Positions 1,765 through 2,952 of a DNA stretch of 64,000 bases are shown one piece after another. A program made the translations under genes and the position numbers. The DNA is from Natronosalvus rutilus. GTDB lineage: Archaea; Halobacteriota; Halobacteria; Halobacteriales; Natrialbaceae. The stretch spans positions 558,001 to 622,000 of the forward strand of contig NZ_CP100355.1 in the NCBI RefSeq assembly GCF_024204665.1. The letters run 5' to 3'. The notes under the pieces were generated by a model. It saw only the letters and a list, made by a program, of their open reading frames with translations. It had not been told where the DNA came from and did no database searches. The first letter of the stretch is position 1. Each line of letters begins with the position of its first letter.

Positions 1765-2067
1765 CTCGAGTCGAAGGGTGGCTACTGGCGCGGACTCGAA
1801 CGCCGACAGGACGAAGCGAGATCCAGCGTGTGAGTCGTCTCGAGCACACTGGTAGCAGCGAGTGAAAGCGTGAACGGCAGCAGTCGGTCGTCAGTTGGCC
1901 ACAACTGCGACTTGTCGTGTCGCTACATTCGGTTCTCGGACCATTCCGCGCCAGAGAGACGTATCACATGGCTGAAATCCCATTCTCGACACATGCAGTG
2001 TTTTCAGTACTTTCAGTGTTTTCGCTCCGAACACTCATAACGATGCGCACGGTACTCTCGTTCATCG
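1765..2067. other. Intergenic region upstream of the toxin-antitoxin pair
   Basis: These 303 bases have no credible gene. The right end carries the promoter and operator candidate of the toxin-antitoxin operon: three tandem 9-base units at 1997-2023, described separately. The left end is GC-rich DNA after the preceding stop codon with nothing recognisable. Confidence 0.5.
1997..2023 (+). promoter_or_regulatory. Three tandem 9-base repeats, operator candidate
   Basis: AGTGTTTTC (1997-2005), AGTACTTTC (2006-2014) and AGTGTTTTC (2015-2023) lie head to tail, 45 to 71 bases before the antitoxin start. Such iterons next to a winged-helix antitoxin gene suggest an autoregulatory binding site. The T-rich sequence may also contain the promoter. 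The repeats are seen; the role is inferred. Confidence 0.5.
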
Positions 2068-2439
2068 ATGTCGATCGATCGCAAGACCTTCGAAAACTCG
2101 AGCGAGGACGAACTGGACGAGCCCTCAGTTCCGGATCTGGTACTCGGATTCCTCGCTTTCCACGACGACCGCGCGTTCAAGGCTCGCGAAATAGCCGCTC
2201 GAGTTGGTGCCGACGAAGGCGCGGTTAGCACGGCCCTCTCGCGGCTGAAAGACCGCAGTCTCGTCGAACACAAGGCGACGTACTGGGCAGTGACGGACGA
2301 CACCGACCGCCTCGATGGATACAGTGGCTACGAACGGGCGACAGCACTTTTCAACGAGCAACTTGGTGAGGAGGACGAGCAGGCCTGGCGCGAACACGCC
2401 CCCGACGAGCCACACCCGAGTGTGGAGAACGAGCAGTGA
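2068..2439 (+). CDS. Winged-helix (MarR-like) antitoxin candidate
   Basis: 123 residues. After an acidic leader, residues about 22-85 form a winged-helix DNA-binding domain: FKAREIAARVGADEGAVSTA is the helix-turn-helix and LVEHKATYWAV the wing. The C-terminal 35 residues are acidic and probably flexible, a common arrangement for antitoxins that wrap around the toxin. The stop codon overlaps the GTG start of the MazF/PemK-like gene (GTGA at 2436-2439), which implies translational coupling. The expected role is to neutralise the downstream endoribonuclease and repress the operon, probably through the tandem repeats at 1997-2023. The DNA-binding fold is clear; the antitoxin role rests on gene context. 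Confidence 0.75.
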   Translation: MSIDRKTFENSSEDELDEPSVPDLVLGFLAFHDDRAFKAREIAARVGADEGAVSTALSRLKDRSLVEHKATYWAVTDDTDRLDGYSGYERATALFNEQLGEEDEQAWREHAPDEPHPSVENEQ

Positions 2440-2789
2440 CCGACGACGAACCCACCCCGATCTTCGAACGAGGAGACGTCGTCTACGGCAACGACCCGTT
2501 CAAAGGTGGGGAAAAAGCTCGACCCTGGCTCGTTCTCTCGAACCATCACGGACGGCCGTTCCACGGCGAACAGCATATCGTGCTCACGTTGACGTCGAAA
2601 TCGTGGCTGGAGGGACTCATCGAGATTCCAGAGGATGGGTGGCTTCGTGGTGGGACTCCAGACGACAGCCGGATTGTACCGTGGGGTGATCAATCAATCG
2701 ACAAAAGAGACGTCAAATTCTGGCAGGGGCGTCTGAGGCAGGATCTCGTCGATGAAGCTGTCACTGGTCTCGTCGAAGAGCTACAGTAG
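2436..2789 (+). CDS. PemK/MazF-family endoribonuclease toxin candidate
   Basis: 117 residues from a GTG that overlaps the antitoxin stop codon. The start IFERGDVVYGNDPFKGGEKARPWLVL matches the opening of MazF/PemK toxins: a beta strand leading to a G-D-V-V segment, then K-x-R-P-W-L-V-L with the conserved Arg-Pro. HIVLTLTSKSW corresponds to the central strand with its Ser/Thr residues. MazF toxins are SH3-like barrel dimers that cleave single-stranded mRNA at short sequence motifs. The length is normal for the family. There is no membrane segment or signal peptide. The pairing with a MarR-like partner, instead of the AbrB, PHD or RHH antitoxins usual in bacteria, is the notable feature. Confidence 0.8.
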   Translation: MTDDEPTPIFERGDVVYGNDPFKGGEKARPWLVLSNHHGRPFHGEQHIVLTLTSKSWLEGLIEIPEDGWLRGGTPDDSRIVPWGDQSIDKRDVKFWQGRLRQDLVDEAVTGLVEELQ

Positions 2790-2952
2790 TGGTTTTCTCA
2801 GGCGTCCCTTAATTGGGGGAATCACAGAGCAATGGTTGTCGAATGTCAGGGCAGGGACTTCGAAATCCATCTGGGCCGGTATTCCGCCCACTCACGACGT
2901 CAGCCGAAAAACACAACACAGGCCGGAAAATACCCGAATCTCGATACCAGAC

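Follow-up and report, generated by a model that had tools for sequence, protein, structure and literature searches.

The MazEF and PemIK toxin–antitoxin systems of type II encode an antitoxin of the AbrB (MazE), ribbon–helix–helix (RHH) or PHD type, followed by a toxin of the MazF fold in an overlapping gene. MazE proteins bind the toxin through hydrophobic residues of their C-terminal tails. Two kinds of DNA-binding regulators are also relevant here: MarR proteins bind palindromes as dimers, and Omega, a small regulator of a plasmid toxin–antitoxin system, binds unspaced short direct repeats. The Omega repressor of pSM19035 is described as an RHH protein acting on heptad repeats (PMC3874152). 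In the MazF partner tables of Makarova 2009 (PMC2701414), AbrB, RHH, CcdA, PHD and XF1863 proteins are recorded and winged-helix proteins are absent, in agreement with the initial annotation of the locus presented below, which had called such a partner less described. The winged-helix antitoxin AbiEi of the type IV pair AbiEi–AbiEii is encoded first, binds repeated DNA (two inverted repeats) at its own promoter and carries a separate C-terminal domain (PMC3985639).

The locus analyzed here lies in a 64-kb window (the whole stretch of DNA under analysis) of a 4.3 Mb haloarchaeal genome. It shares with MazEF and PemIK the MazF-fold toxin, the leading antitoxin gene and the gene overlap; it differs from them in the winged-helix antitoxin, which replaces AbrB, RHH or PHD, and in the predicted operator, an array of direct 9-bp iterons. 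With AbiE it has in common the winged-helix antitoxin encoded first and the binding of repeats at its own promoter, which is predicted here, whereas AbiEii is a nucleotidyltransferase and the toxin of our pair a MazF protein; the separate C-terminal domain and the inverted repeats remain features of AbiEi. Omega is likewise a small toxin–antitoxin regulator with short direct repeats (the binding at our locus is predicted), but it has a ribbon–helix–helix fold and 7-bp units and is separate from the antitoxin. As far as we could find, the pair is annotated in RefSeq, where toxins of this family are named PemK/MazF and the partner MarR or helix-turn-helix, and has no earlier description in the open-access literature; a TAfinder screen of Haloferax volcanii listed no MazF pair (PMC5566976).

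The features of the locus are as follows.

1771..2950, no strand: module-sized presence/absence polymorphism, approximate extent, about 1.2 kb carrying the pair
1997..2023, + strand: three tandem 9-bp units AGTGTTTTC, AGTACTTTC, AGTGTTTTC, predicted operator core
2024..2067, + strand: continuation of the 9-bp register, GCTCCGAAC, ACTCATAAC, GATGCGCAC, GGTACTCTC, GTTCATCG, up to the start codon
2068..2439, + strand: winged-helix gene, predicted antitoxin and autorepressor, 123 aa, ATG start
2436..2789, + strand: MazF/PemK-family gene, predicted mRNA endonuclease toxin, 117 aa, GTG start

The ORF coordinates (2068–2439 and 2436–2789) bore out the previously reported order of the two genes, winged-helix gene first, and their overlap in the GTGA at 2436–2439. 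With two small overlapping genes, the predicted antitoxin gene in front and both inherited together, the pair has the layout of a type II system.

The two proteins

The 117-aa protein matched the PemK_toxin profile (PF02452) with 24.3 bits against a cut-off of 23.1, over profile positions 1–105 of 109. Its AF2 model (pLDDT 89.5) was aligned by Foldseek with the RNA-bound B. subtilis MazF (4mdx) at E 3.4e-7 and probability 1.00, with a TM-score of about 0.7 to MazF structures; the best PDB matches included MazF of B. subtilis and of S. aureus and MazF-mt3 of M. tuberculosis. The MazF/PemK-like identity assigned earlier to the second gene was thus upheld, narrowly by profile score and also by the predicted fold. 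In the alignment of toxin homologues, R29 was nearly invariant and a T/S-rich segment of the TLTSK type was kept; from the alignment and from general knowledge of the family, we take them to be the catalytic Arg and Thr/Ser of MazF. A phmmer search for closely related solved structures of the two proteins returned none, with weak profile matches to MazF only. The 117-aa toxin was not reported by the profile search across the window's own genome, nor did it have a match in the PADLOC search for defence systems. In our reading, the downstream gene codes for a MazF-fold protein, presumably a sequence-specific mRNA endonuclease, and its product is predicted to be toxic.

The 123-aa partner, hereafter the helix protein, scored 26.0 bits against MarR_2 (PF12802), and its AF2 topology was that of a winged helix (H21–31/H39–46/H50–62/E66–69/E72–75). 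Regulators of the MarR/MepR/ZitR group are closest to its wing domain in sequence and in structure. Its PDB matches were of the MarR type, but whole-chain TM-scores to MarR proteins were only about 0.42–0.49. Outside the wing domain, its resemblance to MarR proteins was unconvincing, and the combination of an above-cut-off profile with the MarR dimerization helices was not found. The term MarR-like winged helix, used in the initial annotation, is therefore fair as a name, whereas formal MarR membership did not hold (26.0 bits, just below the cut-off of 27). Pfam, AF2 and Foldseek all pointed to a winged helix and not to an antitoxin of the AbrB, RHH or PHD type. PADLOC returned a weak match of the wing domain to PDC-M05A and nothing else. 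Past the wing runs a conserved acidic tail in which W107 is invariant; by analogy with MazE, this tail may bind and neutralize MazF.

Pairing, decay and mobility of the module

Relatives of the toxin were detected in 287 and relatives of the helix protein in 306 of 392 genomes of the order, the toxin in several copies per genome. The module is carried by around three in four of the sampled haloarchaeal genomes; carriers include Halobacterium salinarum, Haloarcula, Halorubrum, Haloferax and Natrinema. In the genomes of the order, the pairing is near-obligate: the two genes are nearly always adjacent and the helix gene comes first. Among the 150 helix matches listed, 113 were directly followed by a toxin match and in three further ones an insertion of 1.4–1.7 kb lay at the toxin (L080, L081 and L082). 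The remaining 34, most of which were inspected, mostly stood beside a truncated or frameshifted toxin or a divergent MazF. The helix gene was also found just upstream in 24 of 25 toxin matches whose partner had not yet been listed. The initial proposal had depended on winged-helix homologues lying beside MazF genes, and these counts agree with it. The distances between toxins and between helix proteins were correlated (0.77 for 92 intact pairs; maximum 0.17 in 500 permutations). We also considered that the antitoxin had been swapped onto unrelated toxins and rejected this, since helix genes without an obvious MazF mostly precede MazF remnants or divergent MazF genes. Outside the order, toxin relatives mostly had other partners, and the same type of pair occurred in one genome (L213).

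Several individual loci deserve mention. The insertion between the helix gene and the toxin in L082 contains a 416-aa ORF resembling a transposon protein. The window's own genome holds a second, divergent winged-helix/PemK pair (L224, contig 3, 61200–62700). In L225 (G044 contig 8), a distant PemK-profile gene directly follows a longer winged-helix gene (194 aa), and the two may represent a sister family; in L212 (G409 contig 2) a PemK relative is preceded by an ORF unlike a winged helix, a possible case of partner exchange.

The decay of the pair is biased towards the toxin. Among close homologues, in-frame stops were present in 21 of 98 toxins versus 4 of 116 helix genes (Fisher p = 6e-5, relatedness among the sequences being uncorrected). 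In the fetched loci, most stops in the otherwise well conserved toxins were isolated nonsense codons whose positions varied, and one truly early-broken helix gene was seen among the helix sequences inspected. Beside broken toxins, the helix genes were mostly full length and had kept their ATG and repeats. A toxin that does harm and a helix gene that protects against it would be expected to produce such a bias, which indirectly supports neutralization of the toxin by its partner. Against this stands the persistence of helix genes next to dead toxins, which may have another use for them.

Gain or loss of the whole module was also observed. At the 1771–2950 site, two congeneric genomes lack the module and show about 100–120 bp in its place, between flanks that are 94–96% identical; toxin relatives are present on 60 plasmid records. 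The module is mobile. Carriage by viruses was considered and discarded: the helix protein had no matches in phage records and the toxin profile none in viral contigs.

The 9-bp repeats and the recognition helix

The three tandem 9-mers reported just upstream of the pair are exact as quoted and occupy 1997–2005 (AGTGTTTTC), 2006–2014 (AGTACTTTC) and 2015–2023 (AGTGTTTTC). A C recurs with a 9-base period from 2005 through 2059, after which the start codon follows at 2068. The 2024–2067 stretch is presumed to cover the archaeal BRE/TATA region, a promoter role deduced from the position about 30 bp before the ATG. Over the 75 bp upstream of the pair, the lag-9 self-identity was 0.55 (z = 5.2 versus shuffles); 32 other upstream regions of the window, taken as controls, reached at most 0.41. 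The pattern TTTCN5TTTCN5TTTC was present once in the window and in none of 100 shuffles; genome-wide it had one further exact match, and a reversed control pattern likewise had one. We therefore dropped the idea of the helix protein as a global regulator, there being no sign of a regulon for a pattern so rare. No inverted-repeat operator was found in 1980–2075, and a sigma-70 promoter scan, whose model is unsuited to archaea, gave nothing.

The initial annotation had looked to repeats upstream of homologous pairs for support, and they do recur, with the 9-bp period kept even where the unit differs. Autocorrelation of the 75-bp upstream regions was dominated by lag 9 (z = 17.7; harmonics at 18 and 27) in 62 close homologues, and lag 9 stood out again in 51 distant homologues (z = 11.5), both z values being overstated by shuffles that assume independent sequences. 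The TTTC core of the close group formed 54 pairs nine apart against about 0 expected; in the distant group, the TAC core formed 56 and the GAC core 21 such pairs, each against 1 expected. The conserved block in homologues extends from about −65 across the BRE/TATA position and includes CCTAACnCTCTTTAC; part of this conservation is attributable to the promoter itself.

Residues 49, 51, 52, 53 and 56 of the helix protein, in the recognition helix, split the TTTC clade from the others, and R58 is associated with GAC cores (p = 0.001). Between the TTTC, TAC and GAC clades, the recognition helix and the repeat core thus appear to vary together, which is suggestive; positions outside the helix are associated with the core equally strongly, and the association follows phylogeny and so provides no independent test.

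A dispersed element of about 600 bp occupies 394–1001 of the window, with about ten related copies (approximately 68–75% identity) in the same genome and further copies in same-genus genomes. It contains 17-nt direct repeats, AATGTTCATAATCGGTT, at 419, 599 and 917.

Proposed mechanism, alternatives and significance

We put the probability at about 85% that the locus is a mobile haloarchaeal type II toxin–antitoxin module in which a MazF toxin is paired with a winged-helix antitoxin that autorepresses through 9-bp iterons. The wing domain of the helix protein would bind the direct repeats between about −70 and the start codon, over its own promoter, and several protomers sitting head to tail across the BRE/TATA region would shut off transcription of the operon. 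We infer that the same protein neutralizes the toxin, the conserved tail with W107 binding and blocking it. A fall in antitoxin, under stress or after loss of the module, would free the toxin and stop translation.

The acidic tail with W107 resembles the C-terminal segments with which MazE proteins bind their toxins, and to our knowledge every characterized MazF antitoxin binds its toxin. It is accordingly unlikely that the helix protein controls the toxin without touching MazF, either by transcriptional repression only or, in a type IV-like manner, at the target of the toxin. Such control would be in keeping with the strong conservation of the predicted operator and has a precedent in AbiE, whose winged-helix antitoxin represses and neutralizes without toxin contact (PMC3985639). 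We regard as highly improbable that the MazF homologue is a domesticated regulatory RNase and the helix protein an ordinary local regulator. The very wide occurrence (287 of 392 genomes) and the aconitase adjoining the pair on this chromosome agree with that role, but the pair is present or absent at one site among close relatives, occurs in several copies per genome, is carried on plasmids and has repeatedly lost its toxin with the helix gene retained. This pattern suits addiction or defence, not housekeeping.

The repeats, for their part, overlap the promoter, which may be conserved for its own reasons, and the association of helix and unit is confounded by descent. Both facts would suit repeats that decorate the promoter or arose by chance and are not bound by the helix protein. 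Period 9 is, however, the main lag in close and distant groups despite their differing units, and it is weaker in the upstream regions of the window used as controls, so we give this explanation very little credence. The preferred reading, an autorepressing antitoxin on iterons, can be taken further. The helix protein may assemble head to tail on the direct 9-bp iterons as a distinct class of antitoxin without MarR dimerization helices, its recognition helix and the repeat core having diverged together into insulated specificities (TTTC, TAC, GAC and perhaps AAAC); we hold this proposal tentatively, at slightly less than even odds.

Altogether, the pair represents a real, widespread and mobile toxin–antitoxin family of the MazEF kind whose predicted antitoxin and operator are both unusual. 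If the proposed roles are true, a winged-helix partner would be added to the MazF family, and a toxin–antitoxin family very common in haloarchaea would be missing from the open-access surveys consulted, including the screen in PMC5566976. The frequent toxin-dead copies constitute natural experiments on antitoxin-only loci, and the repeat cores and recognition helices, which vary naturally across the family, offer a ready set from which to decipher how a small winged helix reads DNA. Were the specificities indeed insulated, a single haloarchaeal genome could carry many copies that do not regulate one another.
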